Part shown: piece after piece, positions 7,715 through 12,721 of the stretch
Layout of the letters: each line of letters starts with the position of its first letter
Position numbering within the stretch: the stretch's first letter is position 1
Source: Acidobacteriota bacterium
GTDB taxonomy: Bacteria; Acidobacteriota; Vicinamibacteria; Vicinamibacterales; JAFNAJ01
Assembly: GCA_016789685.1 (NCBI GenBank)
Contig: JAEUQQ010000460.1
Span: 1-33,948 of the forward strand
Direction: 5' to 3'
Length of the DNA: 33,948 bases
Position numbers and translations under genes: made by a program
Notes under the pieces: generated by a model
The model's input: only the letters and a program-made list of their open reading frames with translations
Told to the model about the DNA's origin: nothing
Databases searched by the model: none

Positions 7715-8075
7715 GGCGGTCTCCGCGGAGTCGAAATCTGCTGGTCGGTAGGGCGCGTCCCCTGCGCACAGGGGCAGCGGTGGGCGAAGGCGGTCGCATC
7801 GGCGGCAGACACCGCAGGCCAGGCGACTGACTTCGACAACTTGGCGAGGCGCCACCGTATCCGGCACCTATCCTAATGTCAATACAAGAATGCAAGACGA
7901 CGAGCTACCTGGTCGGGCCGACACCCCGTCTGCCCTCTCCGGCGCGACGGTGACCGCCCATTCGCGGCAGCGGTGGCCGCGTGGCCGGTTCGTCGCCCCG
8001 GATTGCGTAGTGCAGGACAGCTCCCCGTCAACATGGACCGGCGTCAGTCGCTGCGAAGGCAGCAGAAGGTGCGTC
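7715..8075. other. Intergenic region between divergent genes
   Basis: These 361 bases separate the TIM-barrel gene (minus) from the zinc-peptidase-like gene (plus). The stretch around 7868-7892 is clearly more AT-rich than its surroundings and holds the minus-strand promoter candidate listed separately. No RNA gene, repeat or convincing small ORF was seen in the remainder. Confidence 0.6.
7854..7882 (-). promoter_or_regulatory. Candidate sigma-70 promoter for the TIM-barrel gene
   Basis: On the minus strand TTGACA (7877-7882) is followed after exactly 17 bases by TACGGT (7854-7859). The -35 is a perfect consensus, while the -10 matches only half of TATAAT. It would give a leader of about 135 bases before the ATG at 7714. 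Confidence 0.4.
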
Positions 8076-9365
8076 ATGTCAGAGAAGTGGACCGTCAAGG
8101 GGACGATCGCGGTCGATCACGTGCTGCCGGAGCTCGACGCGATGCTCGGCACGCGCAGCCCGCTCGCGGGCATCCAGGTGAAGGTGTCGGCCCGCTCGAA
8201 GATCCCCTTCGGCTGGGGGACGTGGGCCGCGTGGGACACGGTCACCACGGGCGCCAACGGGGCGTTCAGCGTCTCGAAGGAGAAGGGATCCGACCGCCGG
8301 CAGTTCAAGGTCGAGATCCTGTACGACTCGAGCAAGCTCCGCATCAAGGAAGGCAAGGAGACGAGCCTCTCGATCGGGGGCAACGGGTTCCCGATCGACA
8401 TCGACTTCGACCTCACCGACAAGGACTGGCACGAGGTGCACAGCGACAAGGACGACGACGAGGAGCGGCGCGCCGGGGTGCACGATCTCGGCGAGATCCT
8501 GGTGACCGCGTCGGTCGCCCGCAAGCACGGCGACATCTGGATCCTCTACAACAAGGTCATCGACCTCATGGAGGACTACGGCACCGAGTACATCTTCAAG
8601 AAGAAGGTGGTCGTGAAGTACCCGATGAGCATCTCGCCGGCGGCCTCGTCGTCGTACTGGAATCCGATCGACGGGCGCGGGCACATCAAGGAAGACCAGT
8701 TCAACGCGTACACGCTGCTCCACGAGCTGACGCACCAGTGGGAGTACGACCACTGCACCGGCGAGAACGGCATGGCGTGGCAACTCGTGAAGCACGGCAG
8801 CACGCACCAGCAGCGCGAGAACACCACCTTCGTGCCATTCCTCGAGAGCTTCGCCGATTTCGCGGCGGTGAAGATGCTGCAGGAGATCTCTGGCGGCAGC
8901 CTGAAGAACTTCCTCCAGGCCGCCCCGTACCTCAAGCCGGACCAGCCCTTCAGCCGGACGCACATCGGCGGGGCGCTGGAGCCCGAGGAGCGCAACCTCG
9001 CCAACCTCGACTACACCGAGCGCGGCTGGTACGGCCTGTTCACGGTGCTGACGTTCGCGTATCTCGATCGCGTGGACGTCGATCGCTTCTTCACCGATGT
9101 CGACGGCGAGCACCGCGACTACGCCTTCGTGTCGCTCTTCACGCCGGTGCACGACCTGAAGCTCGGCTTCAGTTTCAAGGACGTGCTGAGCCTCTTCCTG
9201 GCAAAGCCGAGTGCCGACATCGACCGCGTCATCACCACGCAGGAGATGAACTACCGCGCCTTCCTCGACCGTGCCGACAGGATCCTGCCCGGGATGGACG
9301 CCACCAAGGTGAAAGCGGTCAAGGCGCTGCTGAACCCGAAGGCCGAGGCCGCTGCGGCGGCCTGA
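8076..9365 (+). CDS. HExxH zinc-peptidase-like protein with N-terminal beta domain
   Basis: The 429-residue protein starts at the ATG at 8076 (AAGG just upstream) and has no signal peptide or membrane helix. Residues 5-115 form a beta-rich, transthyretin-like domain (LAGIQVKVSARSKIPFG... TTGANGAFSVS). A very acidic linker follows (HSDKDDDEERR, about 122-132). The catalytic-type domain has HELTH at residues 216-220 inside LLHELTHQWEYDH, a zinc-binding HExxH helix, and downstream Glu257 in FLESFADF is well placed as third ligand in the gluzincin manner. I do not recognise a named family. It could be a peptidase or a peptidase-like protein acting in the cytoplasm or released by a non-classical route. 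It stands alone, without obvious operon partners. Confidence 0.75.
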   Translation: MSEKWTVKGTIAVDHVLPELDAMLGTRSPLAGIQVKVSARSKIPFGWGTWAAWDTVTTGANGAFSVSKEKGSDRRQFKVEILYDSSKLRIKEGKETSLSIGGNGFPIDIDFDLTDKDWHEVHSDKDDDEERRAGVHDLGEILVTASVARKHGDIWILYNKVIDLMEDYGTEYIFKKKVVVKYPMSISPAASSSYWNPIDGRGHIKEDQFNAYTLLHELTHQWEYDHCTGENGMAWQLVKHGSTHQQRENTTFVPFLESFADFAAVKMLQEISGGSLKNFLQAAPYLKPDQPFSRTHIGGALEPEERNLANLDYTERGWYGLFTVLTFAYLDRVDVDRFFTDVDGEHRDYAFVSLFTPVHDLKLGFSFKDVLSLFLAKPSADIDRVITTQEMNYRAFLDRADRILPGMDATKVKAVKALLNPKAEAAAAA

Positions 9366-9387: not shown

Positions 9388-10770
9388 TCAGTCGGCGCGC
9401 GGCATCCTGACCGTGAACACCGACCCACGGCCGGGTTCGCTCTCGACTTCGACGCGCGCGCCGTGACGCTCGGCGATCTGCGCCGCGATCGTCAGGCCGA
9501 GTCCCGTGCCACCGGCGTCGCGCGACCGCACCTTGTCGGCCCGCCAGAAACGCTCGAAGACGTGCGGCAGGTCGTCAGGGGCGATCCCGGCGCCGGTGTC
9601 GGCCACCGTGATCGTCACGCCATCGGCAACACGGCGGCCGCCGATCGTCACGCGACCGCCCGCAGGCGTGTACTTCAACGCGTTGTCGGTCAGGATCAGC
9701 AGCAGCCGCCTGAGCTGCGCGTCGTCGGCCGTGACCGGGAGGGCCTCGGCCTCGACGTCGAGGCCGACGAGGATGCCCTTCGATGCCGCCATCGCCGCGG
9801 CCTGCTCGGCTGCGTCGCGCAGCAGCGGCGCGGCGTCCATCGGCACGAGTGCCACGGCGTCCTTGCCGGCATCGCCGCGGGCCAGTTGCAGCAGGTCGTC
9901 GATCAGGAGCGTCGTCCGCGTCGACTCGCGGAGGATCTTCTCCATGCCGTCGATGAGGTCGTCGCGGCTACGCTCGCGGCGCAGCGCGTGCTGGGCAGCG
10001 GTGTGGATCAGCGTCATCGGCGCGCGCAGTTCGTGCGAGGCGTCGGCCGTGAACTGCCTGGTGCGCGTGAACGACTGCTCGATGCGCTCGAGCATGTCGT
10101 TCAGCGTTTCCGAGAGTTGCTGCAGCTCGTCGCGCGACTCCGGCACGGCCAGGCGCGCCGACAGGTTGCGTTCGCCGATCGCCCGCGCCTCGTCTGCGAT
10201 GCGCGCCACCGGCGCGAGGGCCCGGCGTCCGAGCCACACGCCGCACCCCGTCGCCACGACGAGGACGGCCGGGATCGACAGCGCGAGCACCGTGGTGAAC
10301 GCGCCGAGCACCCCCTCGAACTTCCGCTGGGGATCGGCGACGCCGAGGATCAGCGTGTGCGATCCGATCGTGACCTGCTGCCATGCCAGTCGCAGGCGGA
10401 AGTCGGGCGGGCCACCCGATGCGTAGCGGATGTCGAAGCCGAGGTCGGCCGGCGGCGGCTCGGCGACGTCATGCCGGGCAAGGCCCCGCGACTGGGCAAT
10501 CAACGACCCGCCGGCGTCGTACACGAGGTAGAGCTCGCCGAGCAGAGAGATCTCGTCGAGCCGTGCGGCGATCTCGTCATGACCGCCGGGCTCGATCTCG
10601 TCGAGGAACTCGCGCAGGCCGATCAGCCGGTACCGCAGGCCCTGGTCGAGCGCGTGATTCAGCCCTGATCGAATCGAGACCCAGTACCCCGCCGCCGCGC
10701 ACGCGCAGATCGCCGCAACGGTGCAGAAGTACCAGAAGGCCAGCCGGAACCTGAGCGACCGCGTGTGCAT
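9388..10770 (-). CDS. Membrane sensor histidine kinase of an OmpR-type pair
   Basis: The 460-residue kinase has a first membrane helix at about 9-30, a periplasmic sensor of about 125 residues, a second helix at about 157-180, a HAMP linker (RRALAPVARIADEARAIG), a HisKA domain with His246 in DASHELRAPMTLI, and an HATPase with N box LLLILTDNALKYTPAGG, DTGAGIAPDDL and GTGLGLTI. It should sense a periplasmic or envelope signal and phosphorylate the regulator encoded just upstream. The ATG at 10770 overlaps the regulator stop (TGATG), so the two are translationally coupled. The signal is unknown. Confidence 0.93.
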   Translation of the reverse strand: MHTRSLRFRLAFWYFCTVAAICACAAAGYWVSIRSGLNHALDQGLRYRLIGLREFLDEIEPGGHDEIAARLDEISLLGELYLVYDAGGSLIAQSRGLARHDVAEPPPADLGFDIRYASGGPPDFRLRLAWQQVTIGSHTLILGVADPQRKFEGVLGAFTTVLALSIPAVLVVATGCGVWLGRRALAPVARIADEARAIGERNLSARLAVPESRDELQQLSETLNDMLERIEQSFTRTRQFTADASHELRAPMTLIHTAAQHALRRERSRDDLIDGMEKILRESTRTTLLIDDLLQLARGDAGKDAVALVPMDAAPLLRDAAEQAAAMAASKGILVGLDVEAEALPVTADDAQLRRLLLILTDNALKYTPAGGRVTIGGRRVADGVTITVADTGAGIAPDDLPHVFERFWRADKVRSRDAGGTGLGLTIAAQIAERHGARVEVESEPGRGSVFTVRMPRAD

Positions 10771-11435
10771 CACTCCCGGCTCCTGAGGACATAGCCGATC
10801 CCGCGCTCGGTGTGGATGAGCGCAGCCTGGCCGTCGCCATCGACCTTCGACCGCAGCAGGCGGATGAAGACCTCGAGGTTGTTGTAGGTGACGTCGCGGT
10901 CGCCCCAGACGTCCTCGATCAGCCGGTCGCGCGGCACGACGCGGCCGGAGGCGCGCACGAGGCATTCGAGCATCGCGAACTCCGTGCGCGTCAGCGTGAG
11001 CGTCCGCGGGCCGCGCGACGCCTCGCGCGTGCCGGGATCGAGCACGAGATCCCCGAACCTGAGCGGCTGCGCCTGGCCTGCCTGGCGCGTCCGCGCGCGA
11101 ATCCGCGCCAGCAGCACGTCGAACGAGAACGGCTTGGTGAGGTAGTCGTCGGCGCCGGCATCGAGCCCGCGCACGACCTCCTCGGGGGCATCACGCGCGG
11201 TCAGCAGCAGGATCGGCGTGCGCACGTGCCCGCGCCGCAGCCGGCGCGTGACCTCGAGCCCGTCGAGAAACGGCAGCATGACATCGAGCACCAGGATGTC
11301 GAACGCCGCACGTTCGGCCGCGCGCAGCCCTTCGGCGCCGTCGTGGCACACGGTGACGATGTAGCCCTCGTCTTCGAGGTCGCGCCGGACGTAGTCGGCG
11401 ACATCACGATCGTCTTCAACCAGGAGGATTCGCAT
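10770..11435 (-). CDS. OmpR/PhoB-family response regulator
   Basis: The 221-residue regulator has a receiver domain with Asp8/Asp9, phospho-acceptor Asp51 (LVLDVMLP), Thr79 and Lys101 (TKPFS), followed by a winged-helix DNA-binding domain (from about 125; RDRLIEDVWGDRDVTYNNLEVFIRLLRSKVD, ending RGIGYVLR). Start at 11435 with AGGT six bases upstream. Its closest architectural relatives are QseB/PmrA/TctD-like regulators, which bind hexamer-N5-hexamer direct repeats. Two such repeats lie in the intergenic region upstream, so autoregulation plus control of the divergent barrel gene is likely. Confidence 0.95.
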   Translation of the reverse strand: MRILLVEDDRDVADYVRRDLEDEGYIVTVCHDGAEGLRAAERAAFDILVLDVMLPFLDGLEVTRRLRRGHVRTPILLLTARDAPEEVVRGLDAGADDYLTKPFSFDVLLARIRARTRQAGQAQPLRFGDLVLDPGTREASRGPRTLTLTRTEFAMLECLVRASGRVVPRDRLIEDVWGDRDVTYNNLEVFIRLLRSKVDGDGQAALIHTERGIGYVLRSRE

Positions 11436-11472
11436 GGCGGCACCTGTCGGCAGGCGAGGATGCCCCGGCCAC

Positions 11473-11489
11473 CTGAAGGATCCCTGAAG
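11473..11489 (+). promoter_or_regulatory. Candidate response-regulator box 1 (CTGAAG-N5-CTGAAG)
   Basis: CTGAAG at 11473-11478 and again at 11484-11489 form a perfect direct repeat with an 11-bp period, one helical turn, as for PmrA-type regulators. It lies 37 bases upstream of the response-regulator ATG and probably serves autoregulation. Confidence 0.55.
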
Positions 11490-11538
11490 GCAGTGCCCGG
11501 CACGGATTGTCGCTCACGCCACCGCCGTCTCGGCGACT

Positions 11539-11555
11539 TTTCAGGTGCGCTTCAG
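11539..11555 (-). promoter_or_regulatory. Candidate response-regulator box 2 (CTGAAG-N5-CTGAAA)
   Basis: On the minus strand CTGAAG (11550-11555) is followed by CTGAAA (11539-11544) with the same five-base spacing as box 1. It lies just upstream of the divergent PepSY/barrel gene (ATG 11579). The same motif near both divergent starts supports a shared regulator. Confidence 0.55.
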
Positions 11556-11578
11556 TCGGCCCTGTGAGGATGGTCGCC

Positions 11579-12721
11579 ATGACACGTCGACTCCTCTTCT
11601 GGTCGCACCTCTGCATCGGCGTCGTGGCCGGTGTCGCCATCCTCATCATGTCGGCGACGGGCGTGTTCCTCGCGTTCGAACGGCAGATCATCGCCGCGCT
11701 CGCGTCGGCCGGAGGGGCGGTGCTCGTGTGGACCGGCGTCTCGCTCGCGCTGCACCGCCTGCGGCGCGCCCGCAACAGCGCGCGTGGCCGACAGCCGTCT
11801 GCCGCATCGACCGGCGCCGCGAGCGTCGTGCTGGTGTCGGCGCTGATGGCCCCGCACGCCACTGCGCAGAGCACGCAGGCGCCCGCCGGGGCGACCAGCG
11901 TGCAGCGATCCGCGTTCGCGCCACCGACATTCTCTGACGACACGTTCGCCTACATCTTCGGCACCCGATACCGGAACCCGTTCACCGCCAGCGCGGCGGA
12001 ACCCGACGGGGCCGACATCACGCGCCGCAACATCGAGTTCAAGCACGTCGACGCGTGGAAGTACGGCCACAACCTCGCCGTCATCACGATCAAGAGTTCA
12101 AACGGCGTCGAGCCCGCCGCCGGGGGCAACGCCGGCGCGATGGGGCTCTACGCGATCCTGCGGGCGGGCCTGAGCATCAACCGCATCGCGGGCAGGCCCG
12201 TGATCGCGATCGGCCCGCTGAAGGACGTCGACCTCCAGGCCGGCGTCAACCTCCAGACCAAGAACAGCGCGTTCGCACCAAACGAGCGCACGTTCTACGC
12301 CGGCCCGAACTTCCAGTTCCGGTTCGGCCAGGCCTTCGTCAACGTCGCCGTCCAGGTGCGCCAGGAGTGGAACCGTAACGGCATCCTCGGCAGAGTCGAG
12401 GACTACGACGTCGGCGTCAACATCTCGCCCGCCTGGAACATCCCGTTCAGGATCGGCGGCGCCCGGCTCGTGTTCGACGGCTTCGCCGACTACAACTCGG
12501 CGAAGGGCCGCGATGTCACCGGGCACCAGACGAAGGCAGAGTTCCTGGCCCGCCCGCAGCTCAAGCTCGACATCAGCCGCCTGGCAGGCCAGCCCTCTCG
12601 CGTGCTCGAACTCGGGGTGGGCCTCGAGTACTGGCACAACATGTTCGGCAAGAACGCCGACACCGTGCCCGGCGCCTCGCAGCTCACGCCAATCGTGTCG
12701 CTGAACATCCACCTGCCCTGA
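11579..12721 (+). CDS. PepSY-type membrane helices fused to a Tsx-like outer-membrane barrel
   Basis: The 380-residue frame has two unlike parts. Residues 1-62 look like the first and last membrane helices of a PepSY-associated inner-membrane protein (LLFWSHLCIGVVAGVAILIM... FLAFERQI, then GGAVLVWTGVSLALHRLRR) with the whole PepSY domain between them missing. Residues 64-98 look like a signal peptide (RRARNSARG..., hydrophobic 79-92, ending HATAQS). Residues 118-380 resemble nucleoside-channel (Tsx-like) outer-membrane barrels: TFAYIFGTRYRNPF, IEFKHVDAWKYGHN, GPNFQFRFG, LGVGLEYWHNMFG. Start at 11579 (GAGG nine bases upstream). No internal start for a separate barrel gene is evident in frame. 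The fusion probably arose by deletion and may impair export. Confidence 0.7.
   Translation: MTRRLLFWSHLCIGVVAGVAILIMSATGVFLAFERQIIAALASAGGAVLVWTGVSLALHRLRRARNSARGRQPSAASTGAASVVLVSALMAPHATAQSTQAPAGATSVQRSAFAPPTFSDDTFAYIFGTRYRNPFTASAAEPDGADITRRNIEFKHVDAWKYGHNLAVITIKSSNGVEPAAGGNAGAMGLYAILRAGLSINRIAGRPVIAIGPLKDVDLQAGVNLQTKNSAFAPNERTFYAGPNFQFRFGQAFVNVAVQVRQEWNRNGILGRVEDYDVGVNISPAWNIPFRIGGARLVFDGFADYNSAKGRDVTGHQTKAEFLARPQLKLDISRLAGQPSRVLELGVGLEYWHNMFGKNADTVPGASQLTPIVSLNIHLP

Follow-up and report, generated by a model that had tools for sequence, protein, structure and literature searches.

Genes at the locus

The window, that is, the whole stretch of 33,948 bases analysed here, carries on its reverse strand a gene for an OmpR/PhoB-type response regulator of 221 aa (positions 10770-11435). 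Both Pfam domains of the protein score above cut-off, namely Response_reg (PF00072, receiver, 101.6 bits) and Trans_reg_C (PF00486, winged helix, 76.5 bits), and its recognition helix reads YNNLEVFIRLLRSK. On the same strand follows a sensor histidine kinase gene (9388-10770), identified by matches to HAMP, HisKA and HATPase_c. As judged from reading the sequence, the kinase likely starts at the ATG at 10770, which overlaps the stop of the regulator gene, rather than at 10965 as in the list of open reading frames. The best subfamily model for the regulator is TIGR01387 (CzcR/SilR/CopR, heavy metal), yet the score (212.2 bits) is under the cut-off of 279.2 bits. The PmrA and QseB equivalog models gave 153.8 bits (cut-off 330) and 159.4 bits (cut-off 345), and the PhoB model gave 165.6 against 296.2 bits. 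Since the scores fall under the cut-offs, assignment of the regulator to PmrA, QseB or CzcR/CopR was rejected. Its nearest named homologues belong to Acidobacteria assemblies, and three further homologues occur in the same assembly at E<=1e-40. Convergent with the kinase gene, an ORF at 7890-9365 on the forward strand encodes a HELTH motif of the HExxH metallopeptidase-like type.

The divergent target (11579-12721, forward strand) encodes a protein of 380 aa. Its first ~70 residues resemble two helices of PepSY_TM proteins, the first joined to the last; a signal-peptide-like stretch, the second of the protein, comes next, ahead of a Tsx-like outer-membrane barrel. With a PepSY_TM score of 18.5 bits, below the cut-off of 28.8, the protein holds a fragment of this domain only, and a full PepSY protein was rejected as the target in the window. 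By comparison with two full-length PepSY_TM genes of the assembly, ~300 residues are absent, in frame, from the divergent protein; the in-frame join of PepSY_TM and barrel is either a true deletion-fusion or an assembly error. The structure model has a mean pLDDT of 72, with the N-terminal ~110 residues poor, and the barrel comes closest in fold to Tsx (1tlw; E 1.9e-9; TM 0.71, normalised by target length). A search of the phylum found 20 other places that match the barrel, or at most the protein from residue 65, and none that match the starting helices. Among plasmids, the barrel protein found distant barrel homologues only, in 47 records, and no match in these spanned 80% of the query. In addition, a search of the own genome for a small PepSY relative elsewhere, with a protein of the related genome G066 as query, gave no match at E<=0.001.

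Two direct-repeat boxes between the divergent genes

Two boxes were found in the intergenic region. Box 1 (11473-11489) reads CTGAAGGATCCCTGAAG on the forward strand, with no mismatch to CTGAAG-N5-CTGAAG, and box 2 (11539-11555) reads CTGAAGCGCACCTGAAA on the reverse strand, an inverted copy of the same motif with one mismatch. This bears out the preliminary description of box 1 as a perfect hexamer direct repeat and of box 2 as the inverted motif with a single mismatch. Contrary to that description, the divergent starts are not flanked by the boxes; both boxes lie between the start codons of the regulator (11435) and the divergent target (11579). Each box lies shortly before the gene nearer to it, with the same orientation relative to that gene. 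Read toward the regulator gene on the reverse strand, box 1 is CTTCAGGGATCCTTCAG, and box 2, read toward the divergent gene on the forward strand, is TTTCAGGTGCGCTTCAG; they are the candidate operators of the regulator-kinase operon and of the divergent gene, respectively. CTTCAG-N5-CTTCAG is the form of both boxes when read in this direction.

At up to one mismatch, the motif was observed twice in the window against 0.13 expected, and at least two such sites occurred in one of 100 shuffles. Box 1 is the sole perfect CTGAAG-N5-CTGAAG in the assembly (6,171,741 bases in 777 contigs). However, sites with at most one mismatch number 19 in the assembly against 24 for a backward-pattern control, and a box with one mismatch is therefore not enriched by itself.

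Conservation of the box upstream of regulator homologues

The 250 bp upstream of regulator homologues, taken from related genomes and named assemblies, were scanned for the box. The preliminary description had proposed a search upstream of orthologues as a check, and the motif proved to be conserved there: leaving out the window, eight of the 22 homologues of at least 50% identity carry a box with at most one mismatch, against a mean of 0.015 and a maximum of 1 in 200 shuffles. Spacers from 0 to 15 other than 5 yielded a single case (spacer 2) among the same 22. With the window included, the box is present in 9/23 homologues of at least 50% identity and in 5/106 below 50%. Four relatives (G004, G005, G007 and G019) have two outward-facing boxes, like the window; these are 6 bp apart, whereas 49 bp separate the two boxes in the window, which counts against the operator reading. 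One box faces the divergent gene at L017 (genome G066) and one at L040; at L016 (G073) a single box with two mismatches does so, and at L041 the one box faces the regulator.

The 14 homologues of the 22 that lack a box with at most one mismatch within 250 bp count against the operator reading. Wider stretches were scanned for ten loci among the homologues without a near box. In G030 a box 2.6 kb upstream heads the operon, in front of a TonB-receptor-like gene. One-mismatch boxes were found after the kinase in G002 and, before a TonB-dependent receptor, after the kinase in G136, and G104 has two outward-facing TTTCAT-type boxes. The sole site of L039 is distant and has a poor -10. In G041, the regulator of which is 65% identical, 14,001 bp contained no box, which also counts against the operator reading.

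Promoter geometry

Beyond each box, at a distance of 10 bp, lies a -10-like hexamer: CATCCT (11457-11462, reverse strand) beyond box 1 and GAGGAT (11566-11571, forward strand) beyond box 2. Both are weak, agreeing with TATAAT at 3/6 positions each, and a transcript from the hexamer of box 2 would begin close to the ATG at 11579, implying a leaderless message; these two points count against the operator reading. On the other side, no consensus sigma-70 promoter was detected in 11300-11700, which counts in its favour. Between the boxes, at 11511-11506 on the reverse strand, a GACAAT hexamer looks like an additional, basal -10 for the regulator gene.

We then scored the agreement with TATAAT at gaps of 0-24 bp for 14 boxes chosen by their position near the regulator. 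The best agreement falls exactly at a gap of 10 bp (mean 3.0/6, next best 1.79), and none of 5000 shuffles matched this peak at any gap; the result was the same for 11 thinned boxes. With three boxes from the more distant regulators G023, G051 and G033 added, the mean falls to 2.71, still with 0/5000 shuffles, but these three boxes have no -10 at gap 10 (1, 1 and 2 of 6), which counts against the operator reading. The hexamer lies at 11 instead of 10 in the regulator-facing boxes of G007 and G019. The far box of G004 has no -10 hexamer, and the gene upstream there is not divergent. Because the gap-10 rule was first spotted by eye on the same sequences, a second set of boxes was needed. Searching seven genomes for the box alone found 18 places, against 6 for the backward control; 12 of the 18 had not been used before. 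Gap 10 was again best among these 12 (mean 2.17), a value reached by 2/5000 shuffles at gap 10 and by 60/5000 at any gap; five of the boxes score 3-5 and precede a gene, and seven score 0-2. In E. coli, PhoB boxes are described as lying 10 bp upstream of the -10 (PMC1906773), and the layout predicted here is of this PhoB type, in which the activator substitutes for the -35 element.

Some related repeats fall outside this geometry. GTTCAG-N5-CTTCAG or similar boxes occur upstream of a second, more distant regulator group (L026, L029 and L035) and on two contigs of the own genome, C583 (1123-1139) and C288 (943-959), in all cases without a -10 at gap 10; the box on C583 is near a paralogous regulator. 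A perfect CTGAAG-N5-CTGAAG is also found 40 bp upstream of an actinobacterial OmpR-type regulator (L069, Agreia), which has 44% identity and a different recognition helix.

Box specificity and candidate targets

A box with at most two mismatches accompanies 11 of the 18 regulators having an F-x-[RKQ] recognition helix and 8 of the 110 others (window excluded; Fisher 6e-7), an association inflated by shared descent. The G236 orthologue, 67% identical, carries CTTAAG-N5-CTTCAG, indicating that the CTTAAG and CTTCAG forms grade into each other.

A strict pattern was defined as the box, the gap and a -10 whose second base is A or C and whose sixth is T. It matched 11 places in five of seven genomes, and its backward control one. 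The matches in the own genome are confined to the two boxes of the window, and at one mismatch there were 6 places against 2 in controls; a large regulon in this genome is thus unsupported. In the relatives, the strict pattern recurs at the regulator locus (two places in G004, two in G005 and one in G066) and elsewhere ahead of genes for secreted propeller-type proteins, C13 and C14 in G066 and one in G073. Of these proteins, that of C13 scores above cut-off for the YncE family, and that of G073 has weak propeller matches only. A strict-pattern place in G066 also precedes a gene beside a PepSY-domain gene.

The divergent neighbours of the regulator vary among the relatives. G007, G019, G066 and G073 have a small secreted protein of the PepSY or PepSY_like type there (above cut-off in G007, G066 and G073, just under in G019), G005 a YncE-like protein (20.9 bits, under the cut-off of 27.1), L040 an outer-membrane efflux protein (TolC-like) and G236 a TonB-receptor-like barrel protein. 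This variation suggests that the regulator and the box stay while the target changes. A fuller picture can be offered tentatively: the regulator and the CTTCAG box may form a conserved unit, whose adjacent envelope targets (PepSY, YncE-like propeller, TonB receptor, TolC-like protein, Tsx-like barrel) are exchanged. The regulators would then belong to an uncharacterised family with the F-x-[RKQ] helix, a compact autoregulated promoter would have been kept across one order and beyond, and the shift from CTTAAG to CTTCAG would have gone with changes in the helix.

Probable regulation by the adjacent response regulator

The boxes are very probably operators of the adjacent OmpR/PhoB-type regulator, which would activate its own operon and the divergent gene by replacing the -35 element. 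In this scheme the sensor kinase would phosphorylate the regulator, and the regulator would sit on each box as a head-to-tail dimer, its two subunits on one hexamer each, 11 bp apart. Bound in place of the -35 element, with a poor -10 lying 10 bp downstream, it would recruit RNA polymerase, to the regulator-kinase operon from box 1 (positive autoregulation) and to the divergent PepSY_TM-remnant/Tsx-like barrel gene from box 2. The boxes, the way they face, their conservation and the constant 10-bp distance to a -10-like hexamer are shown by the sequence itself, and orientation and distance together suggest control of both genes. What we infer from the arrangement is that the regulator is phosphorylated, that it is this one that binds the boxes, and that it activates instead of repressing. 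That the OmpR-type pair controls itself and a PepSY/barrel gene had been predicted in the preliminary description; both controls are supported by the sequence, but the target has no PepSY domain and is a two-helix PepSY_TM remnant joined to a Tsx-like barrel.

The same regulator could bind the boxes and yet repress at one promoter, with box 1 blocking a basal GACAAT promoter upstream of it, giving mixed or negative autoregulation. The position of GACAAT between the window boxes is compatible with this, as is its occurrence just before the regulator start at L016 and L017, where the sole box faces the other gene. However, GACAAT has no matching -35, and the conserved 10-bp distance to the regulator-side -10 is the geometry of an activator site, and we consider such repression unlikely. 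Still less likely, the boxes are real operators bound by a different OmpR-type regulator of the same cell; the three homologues in the assembly and the GTTCAG-N5-CTTCAG-like boxes upstream of more distant regulators would provide for this, whereas the perfect box occurs in the assembly only at this locus and, across genomes, the boxes track orthologues of this regulator. Chance repeats without function would agree with the lack of genome-wide enrichment of one-mismatch boxes, but were rejected as highly improbable in view of the conservation upstream of homologues, the spacer specificity and the promoter geometry.

Comparison with known systems

The regulator and its candidate operators compare with known systems as follows. 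The PmrA half-sites of Salmonella and Klebsiella are CTTAAG and NTTAAT, 5 bp apart and bound head-to-tail (PMC3973317). The boxes resemble this operator in having two hexamers 5 bp apart and an OmpR/PhoB-type regulator, and CTTCAG is one base from CTTAAG in the reading direction; they differ from it in the fourth base of both half-sites, which is C and not A. When compared with the half-site of the PmrA regulon, both window boxes thus agree in spacing and, with CTTCAG, depart in sequence. The preliminary description had assigned the layout to the PmrA/QseB class with another hexamer; the spacing and the difference in the hexamer hold, although the hexamer is nearer to that of PmrA than was stated. 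The pho box of PhoB likewise consists of direct repeats with an 11-bp period, 10 bp upstream of the -10 (PMC1906773), but its half-site sequence is another, and no phosphate genes were seen beside the window regulator. BqsR of Pseudomonas aeruginosa is described as an activator acting on tandem TTAAG-N6-TTAAG (PMC4682146), with the same 11-bp period; its half-site has an A where a C is found here, and its candidate sites are given in hundreds, against two strict ones in this assembly. Among the matches listed in a literature search, we recognised no published description of a CTTCAG-N5-CTTCAG operator, and no paper was found on PepSY with a direct repeat and a divergent arrangement.

The DbfQRS paper (PMC12714742) describes PepSY genes beside two-component systems, on the opposite strand too, as widespread, and it also reports an apparent positive autoregulation of the two-component pair. 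The relatives G007, G019, G066 and G073 are like these modules in that a small secreted PepSY gene lies beside the pair. In contrast, the window target is without a PepSY domain, and other relatives have a YncE-like propeller, a TonB receptor or a TolC-like protein. The design is therefore familiar; of interest are the operator, a variant by one base, and the change of targets, here in a little-studied bacterial group. CTTCAG-N5-CTTCAG, 10 bp and a -10 constitute a testable operator and promoter rule for a two-component family of this poorly studied group, with an operator one base away from the PmrA box. Moreover, the changing targets suggest that the coupling of PepSY to two-component systems is one case of a wider habit, in which a conserved regulatory unit is combined with exchangeable envelope targets. 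G066 also has a second two-component pair (L182, 5318-6819), whose regulator gene has a PepSY-domain gene immediately before it, on the same strand. Just past this PepSY-domain gene is a strict CTTCAG box that faces the opposite way.
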